Shown here: positions 22,712-59,058 of the stretch, one piece after another
How the letters are laid out: the number at the start of each line of letters is the position of its first letter
Position numbering within the stretch: position 1 is the first letter of the stretch
NCBI GenBank assembly: GCA_948567375.1
Contig: OX419762.1
Location: 32,493,465 to 32,557,464 of the forward strand
Length of the DNA stretch: 64,000 bases
Source: Lunularia cruciata
Lineage: Eukaryota > Streptophyta > Marchantiopsida > Lunulariales > Lunulariaceae
Direction: 5' to 3'
Notes under the pieces: generated by a model
Databases searched by the model: none
What the model was told of the DNA's origin: nothing
The model's input: only the letters and a program-made list of their open reading frames with translations
Translations under genes and position numbers: made by a program

Positions 22712-22760
22712 ATCACCTCCTTAGTTGGTGGTTAGGTCACTCTAACTCCAGATAGCAATA

Positions 22761-26499: not shown

Positions 26500-27243
26500 T
26501 CCATAGTGCAAGCTTCCCTGAAAGTTTATTAGACTCCATCAACCACTTCAGTGGTTGATGATCAGTGATGAGAGTGAAAGGGTTACCAAATAGATAACAT
26601 CAGAAATGTACTATTGCTCAAACTGCTACCAAGCACTCTCCCATACATGAACTATGATTTTGCCTCCGCTGAATTGTTGGAGCAACTAGCATAGGCCACT
26701 ACAAACTCCTTCCCCTCATCATCATGTTGGGTAAGCATTGCTCCAAGCCCCAACATACTCCAATTAGTATGAACTTGAAATGGTCATCCTTTGATCAATC
26801 TCCTCAAAATGGAAGCAGATGTCAACCTCTTCTTGAGCTCTACAAAAGCTCTCTCCTGCTCATCTCCCCAACACCACTCTTGTGTAAGCTTAGTCAACTT
26901 TGTCAAGGCCTTGGCAATGGCACTAAATCCTCTAACATAGCGGTGATAGAAGTTTTGCCAACCCAAGGACCCTACAAACTCCTTTCCCTCATCATCATGC
27001 TGGGTAAGCACTGCTCCAAGCCCCAACATACTCCAATTAGTATGAACCTGAAATGGTCATCCTTTGATCAATCTCCTCAAAATGGAAGCAGATGTCAACC
27101 TCTCCTTGAGCTCTACAAAAGCTCTCTCCTGCTCATCTCCCCAACACCACTCTTGTGTAAGCTTAGTCAACTTTGTCAAGGCCTTGGCAATGGCACTAAA
27201 TCCTCTAACATAGCGGTGATAGAAGTTTTGCCAACCCAAGGAA
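26500..27243 (-). pseudogene. Family B RNase H region with a 273-bp tandem duplication
   Basis: The minus strand encodes WGDEQERAFVELK, then an LGLGAVL stretch and DHQPLKWLME (near 26560), typical of the Ty3/gypsy RNase H domain. The stretch 26698-26970 is repeated at 26971-27243 with only a handful of differences, adding 91 codons. The plus-strand copy of the element lacks this duplication, so it arose after the copies separated. Confidence 0.75.
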
Positions 27244-27246
27244 TGC

Positions 27247-27920
27247 TCACACTCTGCTCACATTTGTAGGCCAAGGAATACGTGCAAAAGCCTGTGTGGT
27301 CTGCTGAACACCAAGTCCTTTGGGGTAGATAGTGTGACCCAAATACTCAACTTGCTTGTGGAAGAACCTACACTTCCCAGGATGTAATTTGAGTCCATGA
27401 GATCTCAACCTCTCAAACACCTCCAACAACTGTCTCTTATGCTCCTCCACAATAGTGCTATAGACGAAAATGTCATCAATATAGCACCGAGCAAAATCCA
27501 ATCCAGCTAGGATCCTATTTATGACCCTCTGGAACTCAACAAGAGCGTTCTTTGACCCAAATGGTAAGAACCTCCACTAACATAGCACATCCTTGCTATG
27601 AGGATCAATAGCCCAAAATATTGTCTTGGATTTATCCTCCTTCCTGATCGGCAATTGATGATATCTTGCTCAAAGATCCAAAGTATTGAAGACCTTTGCA
27701 TGCCCAATTGCATAAAAAATCTCCTCCGGTGTAGGCATGGCATATTGATCAGCCTTGGTCTATCAGTTGATAGGATGGTAATCTTGACACATCCACCTAT
27801 GTGTGTAGTTGCCATGCATATCTTTCTTGGCTGGCATCAATATTGCTTATGCATACTCTCCATGTGAAATCTCCACCAAACTAGCCTCAGAAAGGTCACT
27901 ACTCCGGCTCTGAATCAATG
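27247..27920 (-). pseudogene. Family B reverse transcriptase (minus copy)
   Basis: The minus strand carries an MCQDYHPIN stretch (near 27790), LPFG near 27560, and the active-site box YIDDI at 27483-27472 in a CYIDDIFVYS context. LRSHGLKLHPGKCRFF and a YLGH element follow. The order is that of Ty3/gypsy RT. Stops interrupt it in the N-terminal half. Confidence 0.85.
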
Positions 27921-28479
27921 TCCTCTCCATCTCACTATATCAATAAGGACATTGGAAAATTGGTGTATTGCTAGTCAGCTCAATCCATATACCAGGTCCC
28001 TTCAGAGCACCCAAATCCTTCTAACTGATGGCAAAACAACTCGTGTGGCTACTCAAGAACCTCCAAACCCTCCGTCTTTCCTCCCTTGTAAGCTTGGGTC
28101 CAAGATCTGGCTCCCAAGTATCCTCTGTAACTATAGTAGGAGTAGAAGATGTATTGATTGGTTGCTACATTGTGCCCTTAAGAGCAATAGTGTCATGCTC
28201 CCGACCACTAGAGGTCCTAACCTTTGTGTGAAAAACTCCCTCTACTTTGGCTGCAAGCTCCACACGTGCTCTAGCTACATCTCAAATGGACCAAAGGTGT
28301 AATCCAAGTAGCCCACGCTCACCTAGATGGACTCCAAGTAGACCATTATCCCTAATAGTTACTGGTTGTGTCCCAAGAATACCATGTCCACTCGGTCCAT
28401 CACCCCCAACATGTGCCTGAATTGTCTAAATAGGCACAAGGCTCACAAGTGTCCGAGTGGTGATGCCTATCAAGAGCAT

Positions 28480-29660
28480 CATATGCTGCTCTGCCAAGCC
28501 AAGGCTCATAATCCAAGTCAAACAGTTCAGGTCCATAGCCTGACCTAGCACTTTTTGCTTGGATGCCTCTTACATTGCTAGAACAGCGGTAATACTGGTG
28601 CAAAAATCCGTTGCTCGCTCTCCCTCATCAGCATTGGGCTCCACCAATTGCTGTAATTGTGAGTCCCAAACAAGTCTAGGTCCTCCCTCTCAAAAAGCAT
28701 GAGAGCTTGGGACACTCATGAATGTGGTAAATGCGGCTTTAGGTTGTCCAACTAGGTTCACCACTTCCATAGGTGACCTAACAACCACTACCATTGTTTG
28801 AGACTGACGCCCAACATCCAAGATATCATCAACAAGGATGTGGTCAAGTCGCTGAATCCCATCATAAGCACACTGTAAAACCTCTCTGGGTAAGAGGTTC
28901 ATCCACCAAAGACAAAGACAATGAGTCCGTGATCCCACTCTGGCTGCATCTGACAATACAATAGGTCCCATCCAAGAATGGACCTGATATTTACTCGCCA
29001 CCACTCTGGTGCAAGAATCACCCATCAAAGGAACATTCTCCAAAAGGTAAGCTGGAGAAACAAATTGATGAACTTGGAGATGTAATAATATCCGTAACAT
29101 CTCCCAAAACACACCAAAAGAAGGATCTTGACGACCCAAACCTCTACCAACACTTTATGTCCTTGACATGGTCATCCAGAAATCACCAAGTGAATAGGCC
29201 CATGTCTCTCCAGATCATGCACTCCCAGTAAGGAAATGTCTGCAGGTAGGGCCTTTTGGTAACCTCTGTCTGTTGACATTGGTAATAACTCTGGATACCA
29301 ATAGGCCAAGTGTGCCACGTGATGTAGAGAGACTCGCCTAGTAGTCTCATCTCTCTCTACATACAAGTACCTTTGTATTCATATACTTGCCTGTAATATC
29401 GTAGCTAGTCTGGTGCTAATCCCACCAAACAACTCCAATAGACATATTCTCTCTATTGGATAGTGCCAAGCAGTGAGTGTGGTATCCAAAGGTGTCAAAG
29501 TAATCAACTCTAGAGGCTCATCTTCACACTCATCTCTTAATTGTAACAAAGTGGAGCCTGTTGCACCAACTGATCTGCATGTTACTGCAATGCCTCCTCT
29601 AAACTCCACAATGGAACATCCAAGGTGAATAGAACAATCCCACTTGTACTCCAAGTCTGA
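28480..29660 (-). pseudogene. Cytosine-C5 DNA methyltransferase domain inside family B (minus copy)
   Basis: Minus-strand frames show the methyltransferase motifs in canonical order. Motif I is ICLLELFGGIS (29447-29415), the SAM-binding loop. A VERDE acidic element follows. Motif IV is PCQG at 29171-29160, with the catalytic Cys codon at 29168-29166. Motif VI is LLENVP, with ENV at 29040-29032. Next come an ARVGSRTHCLCLWW element (motif VIII-like) and a C-terminal QAMDLNCLTW stretch near 28510 (motif X region). The Trp codon just before PCQ is now TGA (29174-29172), another stop lies near 29380, and a one-base loss follows motif IV. It lies between protease and RT of the same element. The expected activity was 5-methylcytosine transfer to DNA; this copy is dead. 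Confidence 0.87.
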
Positions 29661-29699
29661 GTGATCTCCTCTGGTACTGGAGTATTCTCTGCATGGGCG

Positions 29700-30400
29700 T
29701 TCCCCTCCAACAAGTCACCAGGCCAAGTAGTTGCACCATTGAAAGTTAAAATTGATGTTGCCATGGTCTCGGATTGTAGTGAGCCAAGACTACCACTACT
29801 AAAGTGTGCAGGTAGGCAACATACCCGTCCTTCATCAGACTGCCACCTTGGTCTAAAGAGGGTTGTCTCCTCCCAATAGTCAATGCTGAAACCCATGAGG
29901 TATAATACTACTCCTCCAACTAGCACATCATATGACTCAGCTATTGTCGCAATAGCCTAAGCTCTCACCACTGAGCTATTAGTCAAATGACCAGGCTGAA
30001 CCTAGACAACAAGCTCCTCACGTGTGATGTAATGTGTCAAACCACCACCTAGAGATGTTTGGATCTGAAATGGACACCTCTCCACATTGGTCTTTTGTAA
30101 CTCCATATCGACAATTACAGCCTTCCCCAACATAAGGGGTTGCGCACCAAAGTCTAACAAGACTCTTTATGGTGTATAGACCTTCCGTGAAGGTCTCACC
30201 AAATGGAAAATCTCTCTTTGATTATCCAATAGGACAACACCAGGTGTGAACTGTGCTCTCTCAAAGGCCGGTCTAGCTGGCAACTCCTCTAGTCTAGCCG
30301 TTGTTGCCTGCCATAAACCACTGGTTGTTGAACGGACCCCATGCTCCTCAACCAAGTCAGCTCCACTACCAACCACCTATCCTATAGTAGGAACCGCATC
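29700..30400 (-). pseudogene. Family B aspartic protease region (minus copy)
   Basis: The minus strand encodes LLDFGAQPLMLG with the DFG codons at 30154-30146, in the place of the retroviral-type D-[ST]-G active site. Upstream is a WQATTARLEELPARPAF stretch (30376-30167). Downstream, a frame at 29926-29582 leads towards the methyltransferase. Phe in place of Ser/Thr would abolish or alter catalysis. Confidence 0.6.
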
Positions 30401-30555
30401 ATCTCTACTCTCACAAAGTGTGGCAGCCAACCAAAACACTGGGTTGGGTTAACTCCCAATGTAAATATATCACTGGCCAAAAACAAAGGACACCGCATAA
30501 TCAATTGAGCCGCCCCCAACATCATGATAGACTCAATTTGTGTAGTAGTAGGTAG

Positions 30556-32220
30556 CTAACTAGCAAGTAGTCCATCATGCACACCATCACCACCTACCAC
30601 ACCTGCACTAGGACGTCTAGGAACCATGGATGTCATCTGCAATGCTTCAGATAATGTGAAAGACTGGGGAAGTTTGACCTGTCTCCCAACCTCTCCTCTC
30701 TGTGGGTCCAACTCCATAGACGCTCCTCTAGGCTCTGGAGCACATACTACACTCCTTGTCACTATAGATGCATCCACTTGTGTTGCTCCGCACATGAAGT
30801 CCAAAGCATCTCTATCATCAACATATGAGGTGGAAGCCTTGTCACCTGATCTCCTCTGAGCAATAGCCATACTAGCCAATCTTTGGTCCAACTGCTCAAT
30901 CCGAGTAGCCATAGTTGTATTAGAAGAAAGGGCCGATACTGCACCCCTACTAGGTACAGATCCTCTACCACCACCTCTACCACCTTGTCCTCCATGAATT
31001 GGAGCTCCTCTACTGCTTGCCATAGCAGCCCTACCACTCCTTAACTCCAAGTGTAGGTCAAAACACCGGTCACTAGTTTGACCAAATCCATGGCAATGCT
31101 CACACTACCTTTGTGCTGGCTGTTATGCATCCAAGGTAATAGGTCCATTGCCCTGAGTGCACTCTTTCAGATGGTGAGGTACACCACAAGTTCAACAAGC
31201 AACACCACCACTCATTAGTTGTTGTTGACCCAAAAATGAAGGTAAGGGTCTAACTCCACTAGGCCCTCCACTCGCTCCATAGGATCAAGGTTGTCCATCT
31301 TGTCCTCAAAAACCAACTGGGCATGGTGCACTCTAGAAGAAGTCACAGCCATGGATGAGGTCTCCCTACCAAATCAAGATGTCACCACTCTCTCCTCCAC
31401 CATGTTGAGCTCACTACGCTCAACCAAACCAAAGACCACTGCCAAAGTAGCCTGTAACAACGTAGCCTCACGAACTCTACGTCGCAACTCCCTATCTAGT
31501 ATCCCATACCAAAACTAGATTGCATGGGCCTCAGTAACTCCTTGAGTGAAACTGATCAGCTGCCTTATGCAAGTGTATGCCTTGCGTAGGCTCTCTCCAA
31601 CTTTCCGCTTGAACTTTTGCAAGCTCCTCAACTTGTCAGTCCGTACTTCCTGGTAGTTTTGCTTCAAACATAAGAAGAACTCCACCATGGGGTTAAACCC
31701 CGGGACCACACCACCTCCTATAGCGGTACCTCTACTTGTAGGAGCACTATCTCCAGCTAGTGCACCTCCACTAACACTACTCAAGCTAGAACTCGTTGGT
31801 ATAGTCAATCTATTCCTGGCCACTGAACATGAAGTGATAGAGACATAGTTTGGAGACCAATACTGTCTCTATCACTTGATCTCCTCCAAATGAGCTCTCC
31901 TAAACTCATGGTAGTCATCCATTGGCGGACTCTCTAGACGCTAAAACAACCCTTCCATGCCATGAAGGATGTAAACAAAGTCGTGTTTTGCATTTGCTAC
32001 AGATCATACCAACTATCAAACTCCTGGATGAAGTCATCCAACTCAATGATACCCATTGTACCAAAGTAACACCTAGGGCCTTTGGAGGCCCCATAAGTCT
32101 TTTCCATGTCCGACAACAATAGTGCAAACACACCAAGTGCACTCTCAACTGAATCAACTCTTGTATCAAACTCCAACTCAAAGTCAATCTCCTCCCTCAT
32201 TGGGACACGAGGTACAGGTT
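30556..32220 (-). pseudogene. Family B gag, zinc knuckle and RGG-rich segment (minus copy)
   Basis: The N-terminal frame 32200-31997 is acidic (EEIDFELEFDTR, DDFIQEF). The central gag core 31823-31515 has FNPMVEFFLCLKQNYQEV, then DKLRSLQKFKRKVGESL, resembling the capsid-like region of Ty3/gypsy Gag. Near 31180 a CGVPHHLKEC stretch with a preceding Cys is a variant zinc knuckle. The frame 31050-30556 begins MELRSGRAAM and contains a GGQGGRGGGRG run, which suggests RNA binding. The segment is interrupted by several stops. Confidence 0.6.
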
Positions 32221-33679
32221 GATACCGAGTACCACTCCAAGTAAACCCATTGCGTATTGCAAGGCTATCTCCTCAAGATTCTCCAAAGAACTCCATCATG
32301 ACAAAGTATCCGCAACCACAAATTGCAACAGCAAACCGGAACCACAAATTGCAACCGCAAGTAGCAAACCAAGTGCCAACACCACCAAGTGTCAACACCA
32401 ACTAAGCACCACCCACTAATGTTACTCTAACCAAGATAACTACACTAGGGGAAATGGTAACCTGTAACCTGCCATCACAACATGCACTCTCACGGTCTGC
32501 AAGTAATCACTTCTTGCCTCACCGGAGAGAAATAAAGGTAGTCTGATTGGTCATCACTCTAGTCTCACTATTGAGAGCACACCAAAGCACCAACACTCAA
32601 AAGGCAAGGCACCTCACACAAACATGGTGCACAAAGAGGAAGTAGAGGATGGAGGGGGTCCAATCACAAGAAATCTAAACAAAAACCCTCCATCTCATAA
32701 AACAACACGGGACTGACTTTGCAACCATTTGGCACTTGACATAAGAGAAGTTTGTATCTAAGTCCTAAGCTACCCGGATCACCAAGAATGGGATCAAACT
32801 GTCTCTCCTAGCCAAAGCTACCAGTGTATAGATAATAATGGCATAGTCAATAGGACAACAAGTGAGGGTGGGCCAGTTGGCTAGGGCACTAGTCTAGGAA
32901 CAAGAGATCTAGGGATCAAACCATATTGCGCACAATCTAGCAAGAAAGGTAGATTTTGCCAACCAATGATCAAGATCTACTCTAAACTAGCTAGCCTCAC
33001 GCCAACAAGCTAACTTGCTGGCCCTTCTAGGCCTTCCTAACCTCTCATAGCCCACAGCCATATGCCTCAAAGCCTCTAAACACCAAAATTCAGCAAAATG
33101 AGGCTTTTCTTCTTGCCACTTTGAACCTCCTCCAAAATTTGGCAAAACTCCTCTAAACTTATGAAAGTCCTCCAAACTAGTAAAACTCCTCCAAATCTGG
33201 CCAAATAGTGAAACTCCTCCAAATTTGGCCAAAATCTGACATAAAATCCAGCCAAAATCTGACGTAAAATCTGACATAAACCCTAAAGTTGGCTGACCGC
33301 CAAATCCTCCGCTAACTCTTCACTTGAGCCAAATTGAAAACACAGGTTTCTCCAAATCACAAATTCATGAGAATAGCTTCCCAACTCCACCTTCAATTTT
33401 ACTTTCTGAGCCCCTCACAACAAAATGGTCTTGCCTTCACCTCTTGAGCTCAAAATCACAACCAGTGCTCCAAATTTGCTCCTTTTGTGCTTAAAAATTG
33501 GCTAGCCCTTCAGCACACCGTCTGCCTTACTACCTACCAAATCTCCATCAAACAATGAGCTTCTGCATACCAAGGAAAAACTGAACTTCAATCGAGCTAC
33601 CAACAATCCATTGAGCTTGGAGATACCACCAACACTCAAAGTTCCTAAACTTGATTTCCCTCTGATTTCATTTCTTTGA
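32221..33679 (-). other. Family B leader between 5' LTR and gag (minus copy)
   Basis: No long frame is conserved between the two copies here. The stretch 33110-33290 is a patchwork of short repeats of CCAAATTTGGCCAAAATCTGAC type, mirrored at 34220-34510 in the plus copy. A primer-binding site after GATTACA could not be matched to a tRNA I recognise. Confidence 0.5.
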
Positions 33680-34136
33680 TGTAATCGGATTGTTTACCAC
33701 TCTCAATTCAACTCAATTTAGATCAGTACTTGATCTATCACTCTATAAACTGCCAAAAATTGAGCACTGATTACAATCAAACCACACCCACTCTAGCTAA
33801 GAGAATCCATGTGACGCTCCCCAACCTCTGTCCACTATAGCCAGGAACTCAAAGACTCAACATTAGAGAAGTGAGCTCTCTAGAGCTGCACTTCAAAAGT
33901 ATACCCCTTGGACTTGAGCTAGGTCTGAAACCCTAATGGTCCTGCTAATGGCACCCTTGACGGTGCAAACTGTGCAAAGTGATGGTGGGCCCCACCGTGA
34001 AGTCAATACCCTGAATACAAAATCTGACCGTTGGAAAGTAGTCTTTGAGAAACTACCAAAATAACTCTAACTACTATCACTGGAACTCTAGTGTCCAAGA
34101 AATCTAGATGCGACACTACAAATGGTGTGATAGAGT
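33680..34136 (-). repeat. Family B 5' LTR, truncated, at the centre of the inverted pair
   Basis: On the minus strand it ends ...GATTACA at 33680 and matches 22158-22711, but it lacks the first 110 or so bases of the LTR. At 34136/34137 it passes directly into leader sequence of the plus-strand copy, which has no 5' LTR of its own. Confidence 0.8.
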
Positions 34137-35344
34137 CAAAAAGTGGAATTGAAGGTGGAGTTGGGAACCCATCCTTGTGGATTTGTGATTTGGAGAAACC
34201 TTTCATTTCAATTTGGCTCAAATGAAGAGTTAGTAGAGGATTTGGGGATTAGCCAAATTGAGGGATTTATGTTAGATTTATGTCAGATTTTGGCTGAAGT
34301 TTATGTCAGATTTTTGGCTTGAGTTGGAGAATTTTGCCAAATTTGCAGGAGTTTTGCTAGATTTGGAGAAGGTTCAAGGTGGCAAGAAGAAAGGCCTGAT
34401 TTGGCTGAATTTTGGCATCAAATGTTTGGCTTAAGTTGGAGAATTTTGCCTGATTTAGAAGAGTTTTGCTAGATTTGGAGAGGGCAATAAAGTTGCAATG
34501 AGAAAGACCTCATTTGGGCATTTAGATGCTTCAAGGCATAGGTTTGTGGGCCATGAAGGCCTAGAAGGGCCATCTTGCTAGTGTGAGGCTAGCTAGTTTA
34601 GAGTAGATTTTAATCATTGTTTGGAAAAATCTACATATATGACTAGATTGTGTGCAATAAGGTTTGACCCCTAGATCTTTAGTTCCTAGACTTGTGCCCC
34701 AGCCAACTGGTCCATCCTCACTTGTTGTCCTAGTGATTATTCCACTATTATTTATAAACATATAGTTTCAGCTAGGAGAGATAATTTGATTCCATTCTTG
34801 GTGATCCTAGTAGCTTAAGAAGTAGATAACTCATATTATGTCAAATATCAAATGGTGACAGAGTTAATCCAATGTTGATTTATGAGATGGAGTGTTTTCA
34901 TTTAGATTTCTTGTGATTGGAGCTCCTCCATTCTCTACTTCCTATTTGTGTACCATGTTTGTGTGAGGTGCCCTAACTTTAGAGTGTTGGTGCTCTAGTG
35001 TGCTCTTGGTAGTGAGATTGGAGTGATGACCAATTAGACTACTTATGTTTCTCTTCGACAAGGCAAGAACTCATGAGCTATAGATTGTGAGAGTGCATGT
35101 TGTGATGGCAAGTTATAGGTTTTCTTTCCTCTTGTATAATTATCATAGTTAGAGCTACATTATTTAGTGACATTTAGTTGGTATTGTTGGCACTTGGTAG
35201 GGTACTTGCGGTGGTTATAGTTGCGGGTTGCAATTCTTGGTTACTTTGTTATGATGGAGTTCTTTGCGGATTGCAAAAGAGAAAGCATTGCAATATGCAA
35301 TGGGTTTACTCAAAGTGGCGCTGGGTATCAGCTTGTACCTTAGG

Positions 35345-36400
35345 TTCTAGTGAGAGAGGAGATTGACTTTGAGTTAGAGTTTGACACAAGAGTTGATCCA
35401 ATTGGGAGTGCACTGGATGTGTCCGTATCATTATTATGGGACATGGATGAGATTCATGGGGCCTCCAAATGTCCTGAGTATTACTTTGGTATGGTGTTTA
35501 TCACTAATTTGGATGACTTCATCCAAGAGTTTGATTGTTGTTATGATTTGTAGTAGATGTAGAACCCAACTTTGTTCACACCCTTCATGGTATGGAAAAG
35601 GTTATTTCAGCATTTGGAGAGTTTGCTGATGGACAACTGCCATGAGTTCAAGGGAGATTACTTGGAGGGGATTGAGCTATGGAGGCAATATTGGTCTCCA
35701 AACTATGTCTCCATCACTTCAAGCTCTAGTTTTAGGGGTAGATTGGTTGTATCAATGAGTTCTAACTCTAGTAGCATTGGTGGATCTCTTGGAGATGGTG
35801 CTACTATGAATGGCGGTACTACTATAGAAGGTGGTGTAGTATTAGGGTTTAACCCCATGGTGGAGTTCTTCTAGTGTTTGAGGTAGAACTACCAGGGAGT
35901 GCAGACCGACAAGCTGAGGAGCTTGCAAGAGTTCCAGTAGAAGGCTAGAGAGAGCCTACACAAAGCATGCACTTGCATGAGATGGCTGATAAGTTTTACC
36001 TAGGGAGTTACTAAGGCTTAGGCAGTCCAGTTTTGGTATGGGATATTGGACAAGGAGTTGCAATGTAGAGTTCATGATGCTACACTTCTACAAGCTACTT
36101 TGCCTACTTTGGTAGTGGTCTTTGGTTTGGCTAAGTGTATTGAGCTCAACATGGTGGAGGAGAGAGTAGTGACATTTGGATTTGGTAGGAAGACCTCATC
36201 CATAGCTATTATGTCTTCCAAAGTGTAGCAAAGTTTGCCTTGCCATGCCATGTTGGTTTCCAAGGACAAGGTGGAGAGCCTAGATCCTCTAGAGTGAGTG
36301 GAAGGCCTAGTGTGGCCAGACCCTTACTTTCATTTTTGGTTCAACAACAACTAATGAGAGGTGATGTTGCTTTTTGGACTTGTGGTGGACCTCACCACAG
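35345..36400 (+). pseudogene. Family B gag (plus copy)
   Basis: The acidic N-terminus (REEIDFELEFDTR) and the FNPMVEFF ... DKLRSLQEFQ ... GVTKA core match the minus copy. A QFWYGILDKEL segment follows at 36030-36060. Near 36375 FWTCGGPHH is what remains of the zinc knuckle. Stops lie at about 35551 and 35871 and further on. Confidence 0.6.
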
Positions 36401-36504
36401 GAGAGAGTGAATTAATGGTAGTGGAACTAATACCTCTGGTGCATCACAACCAACATAGAGAAAGTGTGAGAATTGTCATAGATTTGGTCACACCAGTGAC
36501 CAAT

Positions 36505-37242
36505 TGTAATACCAAGGGTTACCCATATGATTTAGATGTGAAATTTGGTTTGGTAACATCAGGAATGATGTTATACATGGTGGTAAAAATAGATCAGATA
36601 GAAGTAACACCAAAAGAGTACTTCTACTAATAGGGCAGAAACTGAAATAGACTTGAGAACCTTAGAACCAATAGCTAGACATATGATTTAAAGGTGAGAA
36701 TTGGTTTGGTAACATCTGGAAGGATGTTACACATGATGGACTAAACAGATCAGAAAGAGGTATCACCAAAAGGGGACTTCTACTAATAGAGTAGGAACCG
36801 AAATATGCCTAAAATCTTTGAAGGCAATTTCGGAGGCCTAAACGGATGAATTAGGCCTCAAAAATGTGCAGATTCCCCCCCTCCCGACAGAGGAAAGGCA
36901 TGCCTTCCCTCCCCCCAACTTTGTCTTGTCAAGAGCTTTCCAACGGTACCTTACGTGATTCTGAGATTCCTACAAGAAGATTCCCTAAAAGGTTCCCTCT
37001 GGTCAAAGCTTGTTTGACCAACCAGATAGGACCTAGACCAGACAGGTCACCCATCCAAGTAAGTAATCCAAGGGTGGAGCTTGCTGAAATGTCACCTATC
37101 TGTGTCCCTAATCCTATGGTGGAGCTTCCTTGGAGGAGATCCTCTTTGTCTATATAATAAAGAGAAGGTGCTCCCTTGGGGCATTGAATGTTTGAGAGTG
37201 CAATCTGTGTTTTCTCTCTTCTCTTGTACTTGGAGTATTACA
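36505..37242 (+). repeat. Element A 5' LTR
   Basis: It begins TGTAATACCAAGG and ends GAGTATTACA. A TATA box TATATAA lies at 37151-37157. The U3 holds two diverged 156-bp tandem units starting at 36524 and 36680, each with a TTGGTTTGGTAACATC core. Confidence 0.93.
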
Positions 37243-37243
37243 A

Positions 37244-37255
37244 TGGTATCAGAGC
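37244..37255 (+). other. Element A primer-binding site (initiator Met tRNA)
   Basis: TGGTATCAGAGC starts two bases after the 5' LTR. It matches the canonical plant retrotransposon primer site complementary to the 3' end of initiator methionine tRNA. Confidence 0.93.
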
Positions 37256-37382
37256 GAGTGTTCTAGTCCAAGAGAGTGGATCACCCCTCTTGGAATAGCA
37301 CGAACTACTGAAACTGAGTAATGTTAGGTGGAGGACATAGAGTAATTGTTAGACTTAGGAAGGACTTTAGAGAGCGGGTAGG

Positions 37383-37812
37383 ATGGATGCACCGGGGGGA
37401 CAATTTCCCGCACCTAGCTTTCCATTCTCAAACCCATTCCACATCAAGGTTATGTATATCTAGCATGAGCAAATGAGGGTATCGCTAGTTTATCACTTCG
37501 GTGCAGAATTCATGGACAGAGTGATGAACTCACCAAACCTGGTGATTCTACCTATGGTGATATATGACAGAGAGTGGGATTTGACGATCTACATTCTATT
37601 ATGATAATATGGATATGAATGTCCCAAATCCCCTCCCTTTCAACACTCAAGTAGAAATCCGTTATGTAGTGAGGCCGAAAGTGATGTTTAGAGATTTTGT
37701 GGTTAGGAATTTTGGTGAGGAGTATTATCAACGAGTGATAGCTTCTGAGGTCTCAATGGTAGTTCCGATAGTTTGTGCGCCTTCTAGAGTGATTATATTG
37801 ACTCTGTATTGA
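37383..37812 (+). pseudogene. Extra upstream frame before element A gag
   Basis: From an ATG at 37383 the frames encode a segment starting MDAPGGQFPAPSFPF, with FHIKVMYI then a stop, and later RFDREWDL-type and RYVVRPKVMFRDFV elements, ending at 37812. It precedes the gag start (37846) and does not resemble Gag, protease or pol. It contains stops and at least one frame change. I do not recognise it. Confidence 0.35.
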
Positions 37813-37827
37813 AGTAGACGTTAGCAA

Positions 37828-38997
37828 TTGGGTGTTGTAGGAACCATGGATCCGCAATTGCAAGAGCTGGTGCAAGGAATGCAGGGGATGTTGAATGAAT
37901 TTAGAGAGATTAAGATGACCATGGAGACATTACAAAGTCAAGTGCATATCTTGAGGAACAATCAAGCCATGCAAGAAGAAGAGCCATCTCAAAACCCTGT
38001 ACCTGCGACTTAAGTGCTTGGAGAGGCGCCCGTGCCTACAAACCCTATCAACGGTGAAGCTACATTGCTACTCCGGATGAAGAAGACCTGCAACATTGAG
38101 CCTTACAAGGAGCAGCGTATGATGGGAGTAGTGGAAAATTGGATCTCGAGAATAAATCGATATTTCTGATTATCCTCAACAGAGATCACAAAGCATACAT
38201 TAAGTGTCTTTGCATGTGGGTACTTGACCGATAAAGCCCTCACATGGTATGATGCTTGGGAATGATCCATGCTGGTAGAGAGAAGGGAGGTCACATGGAT
38301 AGCAATGCAAGAAGGATTGCTGAAGAATTTCCAATCGGTGGATTTTGTGCAGATGGCTCAAACCCAACTATGGGGATTGAGATAGAAGCATAGCGTACAA
38401 GAGTATATGGAGGCATTTTTGGATCTACAAGTTGCAATTACCGACATGAGTCCAGCAGAGACTCTCGACAATTTCAAATGAGGGTTGAAAGAGCGGATTC
38501 GCCAAGAAGTCATGGTGCAAAACCCTTGCACGGTATTTGAAGCCATTGCTTGTGTGTAGAGAATAGCAGGAGCATTAGGTGGAGGTGAAGGAGTAGTTCC
38601 ACCTCAACATTATTGTGCAAAAATGCCACACATGGGTGGACCAATATCAATGGAATTGGGCAACCTTCGATTTCGGGATCAAGGAGCACGGCCGCTTCAA
38701 GGAGAGCAGGGACGGGTAGAAGAACAAAGAGATGGAGTCCCACGAGGAGAAGGGACTCAAGGAGAACAACTCCGTTGTTACAATTGTGGGCATATTGGGC
38801 ACATATCTACCAATTGTTGCACTCGTTTCCCTAGAGGCCCTCGGCCTTCGTACAGGCGATCTTTGAAAACATGGAGAGGCACATTGAAGAGGAGGAGGTG
38901 GAAACCACTTTGGAAAACAAAGATCACCAGTAAATGTACCTCGTGGCTTTACTGGCTCAATAAGGAAGCAGAGAAGCAAAGGAAGGAAGAAGAATAA
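37828..38997 (+). pseudogene. Element A gag
   Basis: The frame starts near MDPQLQELVQGMQG (37846) with a coiled-coil-like N-terminus. The capsid-type core follows, with ALTWYDAW near 38250, LLKNFQ, and EYMEAFLDLQ. A clean CCHC zinc knuckle CYNCGHIGHISTNC lies at about 38774-38815. Stops at about 38011, 38170, 38380 and 38480 and a late frameshift inactivate it. Confidence 0.8.
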
Positions 38998-39037
38998 TGC
39001 GCAAAGATCCCAAAAGGCAACCTCACAATTGATTATT

Positions 39038-42000
39038 GTGAATGGAATCATAGAAGGTAATCAAGTGAGAGTATTAATAGATCCAGGAGCAACAGAGAAT
39101 TTCTTGTCTCGCTCTGTTGCAATAAGACTGTGAATGGATTTCAAGAGAGACAGAAGTGAAGAAGTAGAGTTACCAAATGGGCAAACAGAGAGGATTGAAT
39201 CATTACCTAGACGGGTAACCCTCTTTGTAGGAGAATATCAGGAAGCAATTGAGTGGCGAGTGATACAATTAGCCCATTATGATGCAATTTTAGGCATGCC
39301 ATGGATGGAGCAGTACAACCCAATGGTGGATTGGAGGAAGAAAGTAGTGAGAACCCACCAATGGTCAATCATTGGGATTAAAGAAAAATCACACAGGCAG
39401 AAACTGCCTTTATATGTCGTAGGGATGACAACTATCTGTAAGACCGATAGATGTTTTATGGGTCTAATAAGAGAAGTCCAAAGTGCACAAATCGTTGGAC
39501 AAATTCCTGAGAAATTGAAAGATGTGGTGGATGAGTTTCAAGATGTCTTTCCCGATGATCTACCCTCAGGATTACCACCTAAAAGGCGAGTAGATCACAA
39601 AAAAGAGACACTCTCGGGGAAGACACCTCCTTGTAAGGCCCCATATCGCCTATCACCTCATGAGTTGGAGGAGTGTAAGACTCAAATTGAAGAGATGCTA
39701 CAAAAAGGGTTCATCCAACCTAGCATATCACCATATGGGGCCCCTGTCTTGTTTGTGAAGAAGAAAGATGGTACAATGCGCATCTGCATTGACTATCGGG
39801 GTCTCAATCAGCAAACAGTGAAGAACAAATACCCCTTACCTTGCATGGATGACCTGTTTGATCAACTCCATGGAGCAAGATACTTCACCAACCTAGACTT
39901 GCGGAGCGATTACAATCAAATCCGAATTGCAGAGGAGGATGTGTACAAAACTGCCTTTCGAACCAAGTATGGCCACTTTGAGTATCTTGTGATGCCTTTT
40001 GGCCTCACCAATGCGCTTGCCACTTTCATGAGTCTAATGGATGACATATTTTGTCCATACTTGGATAAGTTATTATTGTCTTCTTGGATGATATCTTAGT
40101 ATATAGTAGCACGATGACAAAACACAAACAACATCTACGAGAGGTCCTCCAAATTCTAAGACAGAATCAATTGTATGCCAAAATCTCAAGGTGTGAGTTT
40201 GGCAAGTCTGAAGTAGACTACTTAGGGCATAGAGTAAGTGCAGAGGGCATTCAAGTATTGACAAATAAAATAGAGGTCATTCAAAAATGGAATGCCCCAG
40301 AAGATCAGACTCAACTTAAGAGCTTCTTGGGGTTGACGGGATTCTATCGTAGATTTGTCAAGGACTTCTCCAAGGTTGCACAACCTTTAACGGCACTACT
40401 TGGCAAGGGGAAGAAGTGGACATGGGGAACTGCACAAGAGTTGGCCTTTCAAGAATTGAAGGCCGCCTTGCTACATGCACCAATCTTGAAGTGGTATGAC
40501 CCAAAACGGCCAATCAAGTTGGCGACAGATGCATCAAGCGTAGCAATAGGAGCAGTCCTACAACAAGAGTGGCATGACGGATGGCATCCAATTGCATATT
40601 TCTCTCGAAAGTTGTTACCGGCAGAGCGCAACTACCACACCACAGAACAAGAAGAGTTGGCCATTGTTCTAGCAACCAAGCATTGGAAGCACTACCTGGG
40701 CGAGAAGGCATTTGTAGTAGAGACATACCACAAACCTCTAGTCTACCTCGAGATGCAAAAGGATCTATCTCGTTGCCAAATTTGGTGGGCAAAGTGGTGA
40801 CAATGCTTCAACATGACAATCACCTACGTGGAAGGTAAGAAGCAACTTGCAGATGCATTCACCCGCATGCCAATGGCCAACAACTTGGTGGTAGAAGTTA
40901 AGATTAACCCTAAATTCTGGCAAGAGATTCTAGTTGCTACAAAAATTGATCCAGAGATTGTTGAAGCGCAATCATCCAAAGGTGTCACCAGCACCCAAGG
41001 ACTCACCTTTCAAGATGGCAAATTATAGATCCCAAATGTCCCAGAATTACGCACCACCATTCTAGCGGAATGTCATGATTTGGCCATTGCAGCTTTTGTC
41101 GGAGTGGACAAGACCTTGGATGCAGTCAAGCGCCATTACTATTGGCCCAAGATGAGCAACAACGTGATGGACTATGTGTGTATCTGCCTACTTTGTCAAC
41201 AGAACAAAGCTTATAATCAAGCTCCTGAAGGGCTCCTTCAACCTCTCCCCACTCCTACCCAACTTTGGGAACAAGTGAGTATGGATCTCGTCTGTGAATT
41301 ACCCAAGACCACCTCAGGGTTTGACTCCATTGTGGTCTATGTGGACCGGCTCAGCAAAATGATTCATGTATGCCCTACCACCAAGGAGGTGACCGCTCCA
41401 CAACTAGCTCAACTATACTTAGATGCAGTCTTTGCTCACCATGGCTTGTCTAGAGTACTCATCACCGATAGATGCACCCAATTCACCAGTTTGTTTTGGC
41501 AAACACTCTTTGGTTTCTTCAAAACCAAGTTGGCCATGTCCACAGCTTACCACCCACAAACATATGGCCAAACAGAGCGGGCTAATCGCACAATTGAAGA
41601 CATGTTACACGGCTTCACCTTAGAAGAGCAAGAGAGGTGGGACACCCTATTACCGTTGGTGGAATTCGCTTACAACAATTCAGTGAATGCGTCCACTCAG
41701 GTCACTTTGTTCTTCCTCATGTATGGTGAGCATCCCTTCACACCTTCTAGCTTGATGAAGATCCATCCAGTGACTACCAAGGTTGATGCAGTCAACACAT
41801 TTGTTTCTAGAATCCAACAAGGTGTGGAGAGCACTAAGCACAGGTTACAAATTGCACAAAATCGACAAAAGCAGTATGCTGATGCACACCGTCGGCACAT
41901 GGAGTTCAATGTTGGGGATCAAATGTGGCTATCAACAACCAACCTCACATTAGTTGGATCTTGTAAGCTCAGGCCTCATTTTATTGGGCCTTTCTTGATT

Positions 42001-42405
42001 CTTCGTCACATCTACGTTGTGGCCTATCACCTTGAGCTACCACCACACATGAAGATCCATCTAGTGTTCCATGTCTCCCTACTATGCAGATATGCTCCCC
42101 AATCAGGCCAAGGTCCTTCCACACAGGACATTCGACCTTGTCCGACACTCATTGATGGCATAGAGGAATATGAAGTGGAGCGGATTCTCCAAAAGTGCAT
42201 GCGTGGTACTCGCCATCCGCGGTTGGAATATCTAGAACAATGGAAAGGTTACCCCCTCTATGAAGCAACCTGGGAATCCGCTGCCAATTTGGCACATGCA
42301 CCGATGTTGGTGCAAGCATTTGAGCAACAATTAATTGCACAACGAAGATGTTGCGTCTTAAAAGTAGGGAGGTCTATAATACCAAGGGTTAGCCATATGA
42401 TCTAG
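39038..42405 (+). pseudogene. Element A pol: protease, RT, RNase H, integrase, chromodomain
   Basis: The protease site reads LIDPGAT (Asp codon 39080-39082), with Pro in the Ser/Thr position. RT has [27 protein letters not shown] and, after a frameshift near 40070-40084, FLDDILVYS. RNase H has [14 protein letters not shown]. The integrase frame 41080-42405 shows CxxC of the zinc domain at residues 37-40, catalytic Asp69, Asp130 and Glu166 (DD35E spacing) and a GPF module. A chromodomain at residues 362-410 has EEYEVERIL, WKGY and ATWE. Stops interrupt at 39131-39133, 40798-40800 and 41026-41028. The chromodomain would direct integration to modified histone H3 chromatin. Confidence 0.92.
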
Positions 42406-43116
42406 ATGTGAATTCGGTTTGGTAACATCAGGAATGATGTTATACATGATGGTAAAAATAGATCAGATAGAAGTATCACCAAAAGAGTACTTCTACTAAT
42501 AGGGCAAAAACCAAAATAAACTTGAGAACCTTAGAACCAATAGTTAGACATATGATTTAAAGGTGAGAATTGGTTTGGTAACATCTGGAAGGATGTTACA
42601 CATGATGGACTAAACAGATCAGAAAGAGGTATTACCAAAAGGGGACTTCTACTTATAGAGTAATAACCAAAATATGCCTGAAATCTTTGAAGGCAATTTC
42701 GGAGGCCTAAACGGATGAATTAGGCCTCAAAAATGTGAAGATTCCCCCCCCCCCCAACAGAGGAAAGGCTGGCCTTCCCTCCCCCTGACTTTGTCTCGTC
42801 AAGAGCTTTCCAACGGTACCTTACTCACGTGATTCTGAGGTTCCTACAAGAAGATTCTCTAAAAGATTCCCTCTGGTCAAAGCTTGTTTGACCAACCAGA
42901 TAGGACCTAGACCAGACAGGTCACCCATCCAAGTAAGTAATCCAAGGGTGGAGCTTGCTGACATGTCACCTATCTGTGTCCCTAATCCTATGGTGGAGCT
43001 TCCTTGGAGGAGATCCTCTTTGTCTATATAATAAAGAGAAGGTGCTCCCTTGGGGCATCGAATGTTTGAGAGTGCAATCTGTGTTTTCTCTCTTCTCTTG
43101 TCCTCAGAGTATTACA
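42375..43116 (+). repeat. Element A 3' LTR
   Basis: It begins TATAATACCAAGG (first TG mutated to TA) and ends GAGTATTACA. The purine-rich AAAAGTAGGGAGG just before it is the polypurine tract. TATATAA is at 43025-43031. It overlaps the end of the pol frame by about 30 bases. Confidence 0.92.
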
Positions 43117-44060
43117 CCAATGCTTTGATTTACACTAGGAGTTACGGAGTGGTAAGGTTGTTATGGCAGGTGGTAGAGGAGCTCTATCATGGAGGACAAT
43201 TGGTAGAGTTGGTGGTAGAGGATCCACACCTAGTAGGGGTGCAGTACCTACCCTTACTTTGGACACAACAATTGCTACTTGGATTGAGTAGTATGAGCAG
43301 AGATTGGCTAGCATGGCCATCACTAAAAGGAGATCAGATTTGGGTGTTGACGCTTCCACCTCATATGCTGGTGATAGAGATGTCTTGGATTTCATGTGTA
43401 GAGCAACACAAGTGGATGCATCTCCCGTAGTGACTAGGAATGCAGTACATGCTCCAGAGCCTAGAGGAGCATCAATGGAGTTGGCCTCACAAAGAGGAAA
43501 GGTTGGTGGACATGTCAGACTTCCCCAATCTTTTACACTCTCAGAGGTACTATATATGACATCCATGGCTCCTAGATGTCCTAATGCAGGTGTGGTAGGT
43601 AGTGATGATGGGGTGCATGATGGAGTACCTACTAGTCAACCACTTGCTATTACGCAGATAGAGTCTAGCACAATGTTGAGGCGGCTTAGCTGATTATGCG
43701 CTCTTCTTTATTTTCAACCAATGACATGTGTACATTGCGAGTTAATGCAGTCCCAATGTTCCAATTGGCTGCCACGCTTTGTGAGAGTAAAGATGATTGG
43801 TTCCTACTATTAGACCATAGGTGGTTGATAGTGGAGTTGACTTGGTTGAGGAGCATGGGATTTGCTTAGCAACCAATGGTTTATGGCAAGCGGTAGCGGC
43901 TAGATTGGAGGAGTTACCAACTAGATCAGCCTTTGAGCAAGTGCAATTTACACTCGAGATTGTCTTGTTGGATAACCATAGAGGGATTTTTGGTGGGACC
44001 TTAAGAGAAAGTCTATAAACCACAAAGGATCTTAGTTGGCTTTGGTGCATAGTCCCTTAT
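43117..44060 (+). pseudogene. Family B spacer and protease region (plus copy)
   Basis: The frame 43304-43693 matches the minus copy (ASTSYAGDRD, APEPRGASMEL, LPQSFTLSE). At 43821-44018 a GLWQAVAARLEELP stretch leads to a protease box in which both Asp and Ser/Thr are lost: it reads GFGA, then a stop, then SLMLGKA near 44036-44070. Confidence 0.6.
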
Positions 44061-44589
44061 GTTGGGGAAGGCTGCAAGTGTTGGTCTTGAGTTACGGATG
44101 ACCAATGTGGAAAAGTGTACATTTTAGATCCAAATATCTGTAAGAGGTGGTTCTACACAATATATCACGTGTGGAGAGCTTGTTGTTTAGATTCAGCCTA
44201 GTCATCAGAATGATAGCTCTTGGTGAGAGCTCAGGCCATTGGGATAGTAGTTGAGTTTATATGATGTGTTAGTTGGGGGAGCAATGTTATACCCCATGGG
44301 TTTTGTATTGAATATTGGGAGGAGACATCCTCCTATAGACCAAGTTGGCAGTCTGGTGAGGGACAAGTATGTTGCCTACTAGCGTGCTTTAGTAGTGGTA
44401 GTCTTGGCTCACTATAGTTAGGGACCATGGCGGCTTCAGTTTCAACTTTTAGTGGTTCTATTACTTGGCCTAGTGACTTATCAGAGGGGAATGCCTATAT
44501 AGAGGATACTCTAGTACTACAAGAGATCACTTGGATTTGGAGTACGAGTGGGATTGATTCATCCACCTTGGATGTTCCATTGTGGAGTT

Positions 44590-45760
44590 TAGAGGAAGCA
44601 ATATAACAACATGCAGATCAATTGGTGCAACAGGCTTGGAGTAGAGCCTTTGTACCACAAGGAGACCATTGTGATGATGAGCCTCTCGAGTAGATTACCT
44701 TGACACTTTTAAATATCAAACTCATTGCTTGGAAGTATCCAATAGAGGAAGTATGTCTATTGGAGTTGTTTGGTGGGATTAGCATTGGATTAGTTATAGT
44801 ACTATAAGCGAGTATACAAGTACAGAGATACTTGTATATGGAAAGAGATGAGAATTCTAGGCTAGCCTCTCTACATCATATGGCACACTTGGCCTATTGG
44901 TAGCTTGAATTATTATTTATATCAACAGTCAAGGATTACCAAAAGATCCTACCAATAGACATTTCCTTGCAGATGGCATAAGATGTGGAGAGACATGGTC
45001 TCATTCATTTGGTGATTTTTGGATAGCCATGTCAACAACAAACATGTGCTGGCCAAGGTTTGGGTCTTCAAGATCCCCATTCTAGTGTGTTTTGGGAGAT
45101 GTTACAAATACTACAACATCTCCATGTTCATCAATCCATTTCTCCAACTTAGAATTTGGAGAACGTCCCTTTAATGGGTGATTCTTGCACGAGTGGTGGC
45201 AAGTACACATCAAGTCAATTTCTAGATGGACCTGCAATGTTGTTAGATGTAGCGAGAGTGGGATCATGGGCTCATTGTCTTTATCTTTGGTGGATGAACC
45301 TCTTACCTAGAGAGGTTCTACAATGCATTTATGATGGGATTCATCGACTTGACCACCTTATTGTTGATGAGATTTTGGATGTTAGGCACAAGTCTCAGAT
45401 GGTGGTATTGGCTAATAGGTCACCTATGGTAATGATGAACCTAGTTGGACAGCCATGAGCTACTTTTCCCACACTTATGAGTTTCTCGAGCTCTCATGCT
45501 TTTGAGAGAGAGGTCTTGGGACTTGTTTGCAACTCACATTTACAACAATTGGTGGAGTCCAATGATGATGAGAGAGAGCATGCAATGGGTTTTTGCATTG
45601 GTATAACTATTGTTCTAGTAGTATCAAAGGCATCTAGACATTAGGTTAGACTATGGAACTGAATTGTTTTACATGGATTGTGAGCCTTGGCTTGGCAGAG
45701 CAACATAGGATGCACTTGATAGGCATAAAAACTTGGACACTTATGAGCTTTGTGCCTACC
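44590..45760 (+). pseudogene. Cytosine-C5 DNA methyltransferase domain inside family B (plus copy)
   Basis: This second copy confirms the domain. Motif I is VCLLELFGGIS (44751-44783). An RYLYMERDE element follows after one stop (CAA to TAA). Motif IV is PCQ at 45027-45035, with the catalytic Cys codon 45030-45032. Downstream in the same frame are GLGLQDP and FWEML, then LENVP with ENV at 45159-45167. Next are ARVGSWAHCLYLWW near 45250-45295 and an ERE-AMGF--GIT element near 45565-45610. The Trp codon before PCQ is TAG (45024-45026), the same residue that is TGA in the minus copy. It sits between protease and RT as in the other copy. The nearest established parallels are cytosine methyltransferases captured by retrotransposons in some protists and a charophyte alga. 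Confidence 0.87.
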
Positions 45761-46269
45761 AAGATGATTCAGGCATATGTTGGGGATGATGGACCAAGTG
45801 GACATGGTATTCTTGGGACATAGCCAGTGACTACTAGGGAGAGTAGTCAACTTGGAGTCCATCTAGGTGAGCGTGGGCTACTTGGATTGCACTCTTGGTC
45901 TACTTGGGATGCAGCTAGAAGATGTATGGAGCTTGCAACTAGATTCGAAGGAGTCTTTCACATTGAGATTTGGACCTCTAGTGGTTGGGGGCATGACACT
46001 TCTGCTCTTGAGGGCCTAGTGTAGTAGACAGTCAGTACATCTTCCACTCCTACAACAGTTACAAAGGATGCTTGTTAGCCAGATCTTGAACCCAAGCTGA
46101 CAAGAGAGGAAAGATGAAGAGTTTGGAGGTTCTTGAGGTGCTACATGAGTTGTTTTGCCTTCATTATGAAGGATTTTGGTGCTTTGAAGGGACCTGGTAT
46201 TTGGATTGAGCTTACTAGTGGTACACCAGTTTTTTGACATCCCTACAAATACAATGACATGGAGCAAGC

Positions 46270-46890
46270 ATTGATTTAGAGCCGGAGTAGTGGCCTTGTT
46301 GAGGCTAGTTTGGTCTCCTCCTCACATGGAGAGTATGCATTAGCTATAGTGATTCCAGCCAATAAGGATATGCATGGCAACTACATAGATAGGTAGATGT
46401 GTGGAGATTACCATTCTATCAACCAACAGACTAGGGTTGATCAGTATACCATGCCTACACTAGAGGAGATCTTTGATGCAATTGGGCATGCAAAGGTCTT
46501 TAGTACTTTGGATCTTTGAGCAAGATATCATCAATTGCTCATCAGGGAGGAGGATAAGTCCAAGAGATAATTTTGGGCTATTGATTCTCATGGCAAGGAT
46601 ATGCTATAACAAGGAAGGTTCTTACCATTTGGGTTAAAGAACACTCCTACAAAGTTCCAAAGGGTCATGGAAAAGATCCTAACTAGATTAGATTTTGCAT
46701 GGTGCTATATTGATGACATTTTGATCTATAACACTAATGTGGAGGAGCATGAGAAACATTTGTTGGAGGTGTTTGAGAGGTTGAGATCTCATGGACTCAA
46801 ATTACATCCTAGGAAGTGTAGGTTCTTCCATGAGCAGGTTAAGTATTTGGGTCACACTATCTACCTAGGAGGACTTGGTTTTTAATAAAC
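46270..46890 (+). pseudogene. Family B reverse transcriptase (plus copy)
   Basis: MCGDYHSIN lies near 46395, MPTLEEIFDAIGHAKVFSTLDL near 46450-46515, and LPFGLKN near 46622. The active-site YIDD box is at 46706-46717, followed by LRSHGLKLHPRKCRFF and YLGH. Stops follow LDL and lie near 46570 and 46605. Confidence 0.85.
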
Positions 46891-46899
46891 CAAGGTGGA

Positions 46900-48440
46900 G
46901 GGTATTATGCATATTCCTTGGCCTACGAATGTGAGCAAAGTGCAAGCATTCCTTGGGTTGGTGAACTTCTATTGCCATTATGTTAGAGGATTTAGTGCCA
47001 TTGCCAAGGCCTTGACAAAGCTGACCAAGCTTACACAAGAGTGGTGTTGGGGAGATGAGTAGGAGAGAAATTTTGTAGAGCTCTAGGAGAGTTTGACATT
47101 TGCTCCTATTTTGAGGAGACTGATCAGAGGATGACCATTTCAAGTTCATACTGATTGGAGTATGTTGAGGCTTGGAGTAGTGCTCATCCATCATGATGAT
47201 GAGGGGAAGGAGTTTGTGGTGACCTATGCTAGTTGCTCAAACAATTCAGCAGAGGCAAAGTATAGTTCATATGAGAGAGAGTGCTTGGCATCAATATGGA
47301 CAATAGCACATTTCTGATATTACTTGTTTGATAAGCCTTTTACTCTCAACACTGATTATTAGCCACTGAAGTAGTTGATGGAGTCCAAAAAACTCTTAGG
47401 AAAGCTTGCATGATAGGCTCTAATTTTACAAGAGTATGATTTCACAATCATTCACAGACCTAGAGTGGTGAATTGTGATGTAGAGGGGTTGAGTAGAAAC
47501 CCATGTCCCAACCAATAGGATCAAACTAGAGCATGTTTGCATGGCAAGACAGATGAGGAGATGGTGCCAAGTTGGCATGCATATGCTTTTCTTTGTATAT
47601 TTTTTGAGGCTTTGGTGGTATCTCTCTCAACACATATAGGAGGAGTTATTGAGGTCATAGATCCAAAGAGTGGAGATAGTGATACAGTTTAGCGAGACAT
47701 TCATGATGATGTCTTAATGATGGACTATCTTTCCACTGGTGTTGTGGGTGGCACAATTAGGGCCAACAAGAGAGACCATGTTCTTCAATGAGCCAAATGG
47801 TTCAGATTGGAGGGAAGACACATTTTGTGTGTATGAGTGGATGGTAGAGTGAGAGTAGTACCACTTCCATCTCAAAGACCACAATTGGTCCATCATGCTC
47901 ATGAGGAGCTAGAACATTTTGGAGTAAAGCATACATAGAGCTTACTCCAAAGTTATTATTGGTGGCATGGTATGCAGACCAATATACAACAATTTGTTGC
48001 TAGATGTGTGGTTTGTGACCAAGTTAGAGCATCATTTAATGCTCTTATGCCACCATTACACCCATTACCTATCATGGGATTGGGTTATTACTATAGGTTG
48101 GCCTTTTTTGGACCTTTACTATTGATTGTGAGACATCATTGGAGCACTTATCCAATGATGGAGCACTTCTCCAAGTGGATTGAGTTGGTGGTACTTCTTG
48201 ACAAGTCTAATGAAGGGACGGCTTACTCTTTCTTGTATTGGGTTCTAAGTTATTTTGGTGCACTAATTGAGGTTTTGACTAATCAGGGTACAAATTTCTT
48301 GGAAGAGTTTCAAGTCTTGTGTGACAAGGCTTTGATTGATCATTGTACTACCTCCCAAGATCACCTTGAGGCAAATGGCTTAACAGAGAGAGTGGTTCAA
48401 ATAATGAAGAGAGGATTGTAGAATTATGGTTTATAGAGAG
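46900..48440 (+). pseudogene. Family B RNase H and integrase (plus copy)
   Basis: RNase H elements VHTDWSMLRLG and YERECLA lie at 47140-47300. The integrase zinc region has CVVCDQVR near 48005-48030. In the core, the first catalytic Asp is lost (LAFFGPLL near 48100) and the second reads Asn (VLTNQGTNF near 48280). The Glu remains in LEANGLTERVVQ near 48370. The minus copy retains the two lost residues. Confidence 0.75.
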
Positions 48441-59032: not shown

Positions 59033-59058
59033 GCTCCCAGTAGGCGGCTCGAAATCTC

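Follow-up and report, generated by a model that had tools for sequence, protein, structure and literature searches.

A stretch of 64,000 nucleotides of the Lunularia cruciata genome (assembly GCA_948567375.1, contig OX419762.1, positions 32,493,465 to 32,557,464; referred to here as the window) contains two decayed copies of a Ty3/gypsy-type retrotransposon family, family B, in each of which a predicted DNMT3-like C5-cytosine methyltransferase (MTase) lies between the protease and the reverse transcriptase (RT). This class of element was published in 2018 with KnitGypsy-Dnmt3 of Klebsormidium nitens (PMC5890265). What is new is the huge amplification of an MTase-carrying retrotransposon in a land plant, the predicted position of the MTase as the final domain of the Gag-Pro open reading frame (ORF), ahead of an in-frame TAG in a CAR-YYA context, a putative leaky stop, and a predicted PHD finger following the integrase.

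The methyltransferase domain and its relatives

An initial annotation of the window, made from the sequence alone, had reported MTase motifs in canonical order between protease and RT in both copies, with an MGF--GIT tail in the plus copy, and all of these were located (Table 1). The motifs are spread over several frames: the minus copy shifts frame between PCQ and LLENVP, and internal stops are present in both copies, which are dead relics incapable of enzyme activity. Pfam searches with four short pieces of the window gave no match, and the five matches returned by phmmer for a 154-amino acid piece against the PDB include no methyltransferase. Each decayed MTase was then read frame by frame, with X placed at the joins. 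These readings match PF00145 at E-values of 6.3e-4 (minus) and 8.4e-3 (plus), both below the gathering score, and the best PDB match is DNMT3A, at only 2e-4. The minus-copy reading has matches in 121 database proteins; the strongest, at E = 1e-135, shows 62% identity over 97%. By our own count PF00145 is present in 49 of the 120 listed matches. Four intact relatives (P0001, P0021, P0091 and ORF1 of contig L007) pass the PF00145 cut-off, so that the profile check proposed with the initial annotation succeeds for intact relatives but not for the window copies themselves. Matches as strong as E = 1e-135 indicate that the window copies derive from a real methyltransferase and rule out chance motifs.

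The class of the enzyme was examined by comparing a profile of 16 relatives with PDB chains. DNMT3 scores best (4e-22), followed by DRM (5e-14), DNMT2 (5e-8), HhaI (1.5e-7) and DNMT1 (0.06). A bacterial-type methyltransferase is ruled out, HhaI and HaeIII scoring far below DNMT3, as is the possibility that two elements happen to flank a host gene, since the domain occurs in every one of 30 copies sampled through their RT and in one frame with Gag-Pro. The proposal of a plant retrotransposon family with a captured C5 methyltransferase is thus supported both by the profile and by copies elsewhere in the genome.

Those copies were sought in the window's own assembly (565.8 Mb). A 26-base MTase word has 4,376 matches with no more than two mismatches and an RT word has 5,030, and the reversed-word controls have none. 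If each of the 4,376 matches marked a full copy of the ~9.9 kb unit (copies L044/L045), the family would make up ~43 Mb, 7.7% of the assembly; the estimate is rough, because some copies may be incomplete and older ones escape the word. With an MTase protein query the best 111 of 13,363 candidates were scored, and all are 72–74% identical to P0001 over nearly the entire domain. The RT-sampled set comprises 30 copies from 109 scored RT loci, of which 27 have the MTase in register and three have it with indels.

Thirty-seven long relatives include proteins of Marchantia polymorpha, Sphagnum fallax and Closterium, together with one animal DNMT3 (eel, 3.5e-10), and shorter relatives add Calypogeia, Riccia, Marchantia paleacea and other Sphagnum; the named retrotransposon relatives are those of bryophytes and Closterium. 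None of the database matches is named as Klebsormidium. Viral contigs contribute six loci with 31–53% identity over parts of the query, and bacterial genome contigs contribute five, of which four are Streptomyces (27–36%) and the fifth is L007. The latter (positions 1–9285) is filed under a Synechococcales metagenome-assembled genome; the contig has identical 127-bp ends and carries an MTase retrotransposon with two open ORFs; it is very probably algal DNA misbinned into a cyanobacterial bin.

An MTase tree of 47 rows was built by a quick method after exclusion of up to 10 rows, named beforehand, that were partial or decayed; its sole DNMT3 gene is that of the eel (P0157), and its output warns of long branches meeting. 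The window sequences group with copies from their own genome and bryophyte rows (14 rows, support 100), and proteins with the order RT, RNase H, MTase, integrase form another group (4 rows, 96). This second architecture, in which the MTase follows RNase H and precedes the integrase, is seen in P0148, P0151 and P0152; their MTase is homologous to that of family B, and P0148 and P0151 likewise end in a PHD finger, but they form a separate group in both trees. The RT tree has nine rows, two of 11 having been dropped because the motif was not found, with support of 100/100 for the second architecture and 93/98 for the bryophytes with L007. The two trees agree on the main groups, which fits a single capture followed by rearrangement, although the nested element A of the window is the only MTase-free row.

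Reading frames, stop codon context and terminal repeats

Three copies, picked for a long open ORF1, were each fetched in two stretches. In all three ORF1 is open for 1,428 amino acids, with the MTase and then a linker of ~106 amino acids at its end; a TAG follows, in the context TAG CAG CCA, and ORF2 continues in the same frame. Among the RT-sampled copies the context is TAG CAGCCA in 29 of 30 and TAG CAGCTA in the other, so that all 30 fit CAR-YYA. The minus copy of the window keeps TAG CAACCA, at the same place as the stop in other family copies. L007 has the same ORF1-TAG-ORF2 arrangement with TAG CAA TCA, so that the context also occurs in a lineage whose MTase is 52% identical. CAR YYA denotes the six bases essential for readthrough in tobacco mosaic virus (TMV), where readthrough was measured at 32% (PMC2754532); by our own arithmetic, random bases would supply it after a given stop once in 512. 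A very stable predicted RNA structure lies directly after the TAG in L007 (positions 3492–3611; z = −4.4) and is a possible readthrough stimulator. Thirty of 36 long database proteins (the 37 less the eel DNMT3) have the MTase without an RT motif, as judged by a pattern of our own, and 24 of these 30 end 64–159 amino acids after it; position at the end of ORF1 thus looks general in the group.

The domain that follows the integrase is a predicted PHD finger, PF00628 being present in P0148, P0151 and ORF2 of L007. Chromoviruses, the chromodomain Ty3/gypsy elements, also place a chromatin-reading module after the integrase; family B differs from them in having a PHD finger as the reader, an MTase, and split repeats.

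The ends of family B are not those of an ordinary Ty3/gypsy element. In the three fetched copies the 5′ end is a single unit A1 (449 bp) and the 3′ end consists of B1 (107 bp), A2 and B2, in place of two full identical long terminal repeats (LTRs); the element begins with TGTC and ends with GACA. The B1-A2 junction carries two extra bases (GC) that are absent at the outer ends, as expected if the integrase trims two bases per end. Target duplications of 4 bp (ACTT, CATG and CCTA) flank the three copies, and A1 and A2 are 97.2, 99.3 and 98.2% identical, which together indicate recent movement. The minus copy in the window likewise has a target duplication, GAGT. In L042 (positions 1350–1375) A1 is followed by ATCAGAG, resembling part of a plant initiator-tRNA primer site.

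The internal domains are of the Ty3/gypsy kind. RT and RNase H precede a DDE (rve) integrase with an H2C2 zinc domain (Pfam, in L007 ORF2 and P0149; the window is colinear), and a Gag zinc knuckle and aspartic protease lie upstream (zf-CCHC in P0149, Asp_protease_2 in P0136), the protease match in L007 ORF1 falling below its cut-off. The direct repeats are split as in DIRS elements, but the integrase stands where DIRS elements have a tyrosine recombinase. The assignment to Ty3/gypsy in the initial annotation accordingly holds for RT, RNase H and integrase but not for ordinary flanking LTRs; that annotation had also overlooked the non-LTR nature of the repeats, the insertion of the minus copy within the plus copy, the PHD finger and the putative leaky stop.

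Like family B, KnitGypsy-Dnmt3 has gypsy-type Pol domains, a DNMT3-related MTase and no introns, and a figure legend gives it a DIRS structure with gypsy domains (PMC5890265), a layout common to both families; the likeness suggested in the initial annotation is borne out to this extent. The two differ in that the MTase of KnitGypsy-Dnmt3 lies in the Pol polyprotein ORF whereas that of family B ends ORF1 before the in-frame TAG, in the PHD finger, of which the accessible part of that report makes no mention for KnitGypsy-Dnmt3, and in host and abundance: family B occupies a land plant in thousands of copies, whereas DNMT elements are less numerous in K. nitens than in dinoflagellates (PMC5890265). 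SymbioDIRS-Dnmt3 and SymbioLINE-Dnmt of Symbiodinium are likewise retrotransposons carrying C5 methyltransferases, and the SymbioDIRS MTases are active on CG in yeast (PMC5890265), but their backbones are tyrosine-recombinase DIRS or LINE, in contrast to the DDE integrase and target duplications of family B. DNMT3 in streptophyte retrotransposons is mentioned in general terms in the available text of PMC12344493, and no report of such elements in a liverwort or moss was found among the papers listed by searches of open-access PMC.

Arrangement of the window

By tblastn, both family B copies align in order with Gag, protease and MTase of Marchantia (from 32107 to 28195 in the minus copy) and then with RT, integrase and a PHD finger, the last of which ends at 24818 in the minus copy; the plus copy is interrupted by another element. 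The minus copy is 87.6% identical to L044/L045 over 7.2 kb and 92% over 1.7 kb (blastn) and has ~1.9 kb of other sequence at 22760–24686. The minus copy splits the plus copy between 22028 and 34136 and is flanked by GAGT at either end (22030–22033 and 34133–34136), showing that the plus copy was there first and that the minus copy and element A entered later. Element A, flanked by a duplicated CCAAT (36500–36504 and 43117–43121), explains the remaining gap in the plus copy. A1 and A2 of the minus copy are 86.9% identical, compared with 97.2–99.3% in the fetched copies, and it is thus older than these.

Table 1. Coordinates of family B copies, their parts and the nested element A in the window.
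Feature	Position	Strand	Basis or detail
B plus copy, 5′ part (part of A1 and start of internal region), severed by minus copy	21465..22028	+	blastn to L044 1070-1634
B minus copy, decayed, inserted within plus copy	22034..34132	-	blastn to copies L044/L045
B1-A2-B2 split repeats, 3′ end of minus copy	22034..22713	-	blastn, A and B units of L044/L045; B1 22607-22713; A2 22159-22604; B2 from 22034
Predicted PHD finger after integrase, minus copy, decayed	24817..25035	-	94% DNA identity to L045 PHD end
Integrase region (H2C2 + rve), minus copy	25113..26267	-	tblastn, P0148, P0154, P0062
273-bp tandem duplication (97%) within RT-RNase H region, minus copy	26693-27242	-
Reverse transcriptase region, minus copy	27226..28116	-	tblastn, P0137
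TAG then CAACCA (CAR YYA context), between MTase and RT, minus copy	28165..28167	-	direct sequence reading
Predicted DNMT3-like C5 methyltransferase, minus copy, frameshifts and stops	28486..29471	-	tblastn P0001, 62-68% identity; motifs located
Motif LLELFGGIS, minus copy	29415-29441	-
Motif PCQ, minus copy	29163-29171	-
Motif LLENVP, minus copy	29029-29046	-
Motif LWW, minus copy	28903-28911	-
Gag end and protease region, decayed	29555..30439	-	tblastn, P0124 residues 545-839
Gag with zinc-knuckle region, decayed	30433..32107	-	tblastn, Marchantia P0124 residues 1-546
5′ repeat A1, minus copy	33682..34132	-	87% to A of L044
B plus copy, next segment (5′ region, Gag)	34136..36501	+	blastn to L044 1639-3986
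Nested Ty3/gypsy element A, outside the finding	36505..43116	+	LTRs 36507-37242 and 42377-43116, 94.9% alike
B plus copy, last segment (Gag end, protease, MTase, RT, RNase H, integrase, PHD, B1-A2-B2)	43121..49955	+	blastn to L044/L045, 83-85%
Predicted DNMT3-like C5 methyltransferase, plus copy, stops	44622..45706	+	tblastn P0001, 51-59%; motifs located
Motif LLELFGGIS, plus copy	44757-44783	+
Motif PCQ, plus copy	45027-45035	+
Motif LENVP, plus copy	45156-45170	+
Motif LWW, plus copy	45285-45293	+
Motif MGFCIGIT, plus copy	45585-45608	+
Predicted PHD finger, plus copy	48915..49134	+	90% DNA identity to L045 PHD end
Split repeats, plus copy	49306..49955	+	B1 49306-49407; A2 49417-49830; B2 49849-49955

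Two other features of the window were noted. At 55367–59967 (−) there is another decayed Ty3/gypsy element, in which no MTase was seen, accompanied by repeats of 437 bp (92% alike) located at 55015 and 60229. At 9624–12731 (+) there is an intronless adenylation-carrier-reductase gene (of the nonribosomal peptide synthetase-like type) that is common to liverworts: among the best 120 of 6,115 matches, those of Marchantia and Riccia are 58–61% identical (Marchantia paleacea 61%, Riccia 59%), further matches 48–63%, and the next named are bacteria (Polyangia and cyanobacteria) at 37–40%, which suggests an old gene transfer from bacteria.

Possible functions of the methyltransferase

We favour, with modest confidence, a reading in which this Ty3/gypsy-type family with split repeats packages a Gag-linked MTase that methylates the element's own complementary DNA (cDNA). 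ORF1 would supply Gag, zinc knuckles, protease and the DNMT3-like MTase, and ORF2 would supply RT, RNase H, DDE integrase and PHD finger through readthrough of UAG in the CAR-YYA context, which plant ribosomes are known to read through. Because ORF2 lies in frame behind this stop, every Gag-Pro would carry the MTase and only a fraction would carry Pol; being in ORF1, the MTase would be made in Gag amounts and carried in the particle, the site of cDNA synthesis. The packaged enzyme would methylate cDNA before or at integration, and this could protect the cDNA, mark it as self or, by silencing the insertion immediately, keep damage to the host small. The PHD finger may help to place the integrase on chromatin and direct where insertion occurs, a role that chromodomains have in other elements. 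For DIRS elements, cDNA methylation has been proposed on the ground that the domain is part of Pol (PMC5890265); in family B the predicted link is to Gag.

Several observations weigh against this reading. With regard to readthrough, ORF2 has a premature stop in all three fetched copies, the plus copy of the window reads TAG TAGACA and has lost the CAR-YYA context, and the sequence downstream of the stop in family B has no conspicuous RNA structure (z = +1.0). Closterium P0149 is annotated as a single protein with no stop between MTase and RT, and the Marchantia gene model P0133 extends into the start of RT, although this model might splice out the stop. With regard to catalysis, motif IV is PCQ, compared with PCN in the aligned DNMT3 chains, and all five motif patterns occur together in just 21 of 52 near-complete relatives, part of which may be explained by decayed members and strict patterns. 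The MTase is free of stops in just 12 of the 27 in-register RT-sampled copies, and no methylation was seen when the Klebsormidium MTase was tested on its own in yeast, a result that its authors grade as inconclusive (PMC5890265).

The PCQ motif, the yeast result and the many broken copies also favour an alternative in which the domain is no longer used as a DNA methyltransferase and instead has a structural or RNA-binding function, or acts on RNA. We regard this as unlikely, since motifs I, IV and VI are present in 45, 47 and 45 of the 52 near-complete relatives and since the MTase is the best conserved of the three ORF1 parts compared with Marchantia (identities of the genome's copies are Gag 63%, protease 61%, MTase 73%, RT 81% and integrase-PHD 70%). 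A test for selection based on shared variants is suggestive: the ratio of nonsynonymous to synonymous polymorphism (pN/pS) in the MTase is 0.34 for variants common to at least three copies and 0.76 for singletons, but recurrent CpG decay can mimic shared variants, and the contrast of variants in at least two copies with singletons is not significant for the MTase (p = 0.066), with values elsewhere of 0.094 (linker), 0.042 (RT part) and 0.44 (downstream part). Three of 30 copies were omitted from these counts for the MTase because of indels, and 0 to 4 of 30 elsewhere, under a 90% identity rule.

Rather less likely is action of the MTase on the host instead of on cDNA, changing the methylation of host DNA at, for instance, target sites or rival elements. 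Such a possibility has been raised for dinoflagellates (PMC5890265), and with thousands of copies leaky expression could matter, but the predicted physical tie of the enzyme to Gag-Pro favours the particle. Improbable, in our view, is that the MTase is a passenger in a decaying family amplified for other reasons: the sampled copies are close kin (mean pairwise identity of 95.7% in a sample of 30), so that its presence in every copy partly reflects descent, but it is conserved across liverworts, Sphagnum, Closterium and further lineages, and 66 of the 111 best MTase matches list no internal stop, as counted by eye in a set in which good frames are selected, being the best of 13,363 candidates. 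A recent copy has observed/expected CpG ratios of 0.43 (ORF1) and 0.52 (ORF2), the window copies have 0.24 and 0.14, and element A has 0.44; such low values are expected of methylated, decaying DNA and are silent on which enzyme methylated it.

Most of the larger Lunularia genome has been attributed to Ty3/Gypsy bursts (PMC9985172), and the words methyltransferase and DNMT are absent from the main text, as far as available, of PMC9985172 and PMC12885004. We suggest, more tentatively than cDNA methylation itself, that a methylation writer wired into Gag through a leaky stop and a PHD reader on the integrase might yield cDNA that is born methylated and placed by chromatin, and that this element might be one driver of those bursts. 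The presence of such elements in liverworts and Sphagnum contradicts a statement in the available text of PMC6338049 if land plants as a whole are meant, but leaves it intact for tracheophytes. Liverworts now offer a system in which the cDNA self-methylation suggested for algal elements in 2018 can be tested. Plants silence transposons by methylation, and a transposon that carries a predicted methyltransferase and has reached thousands of copies reverses this common assumption.

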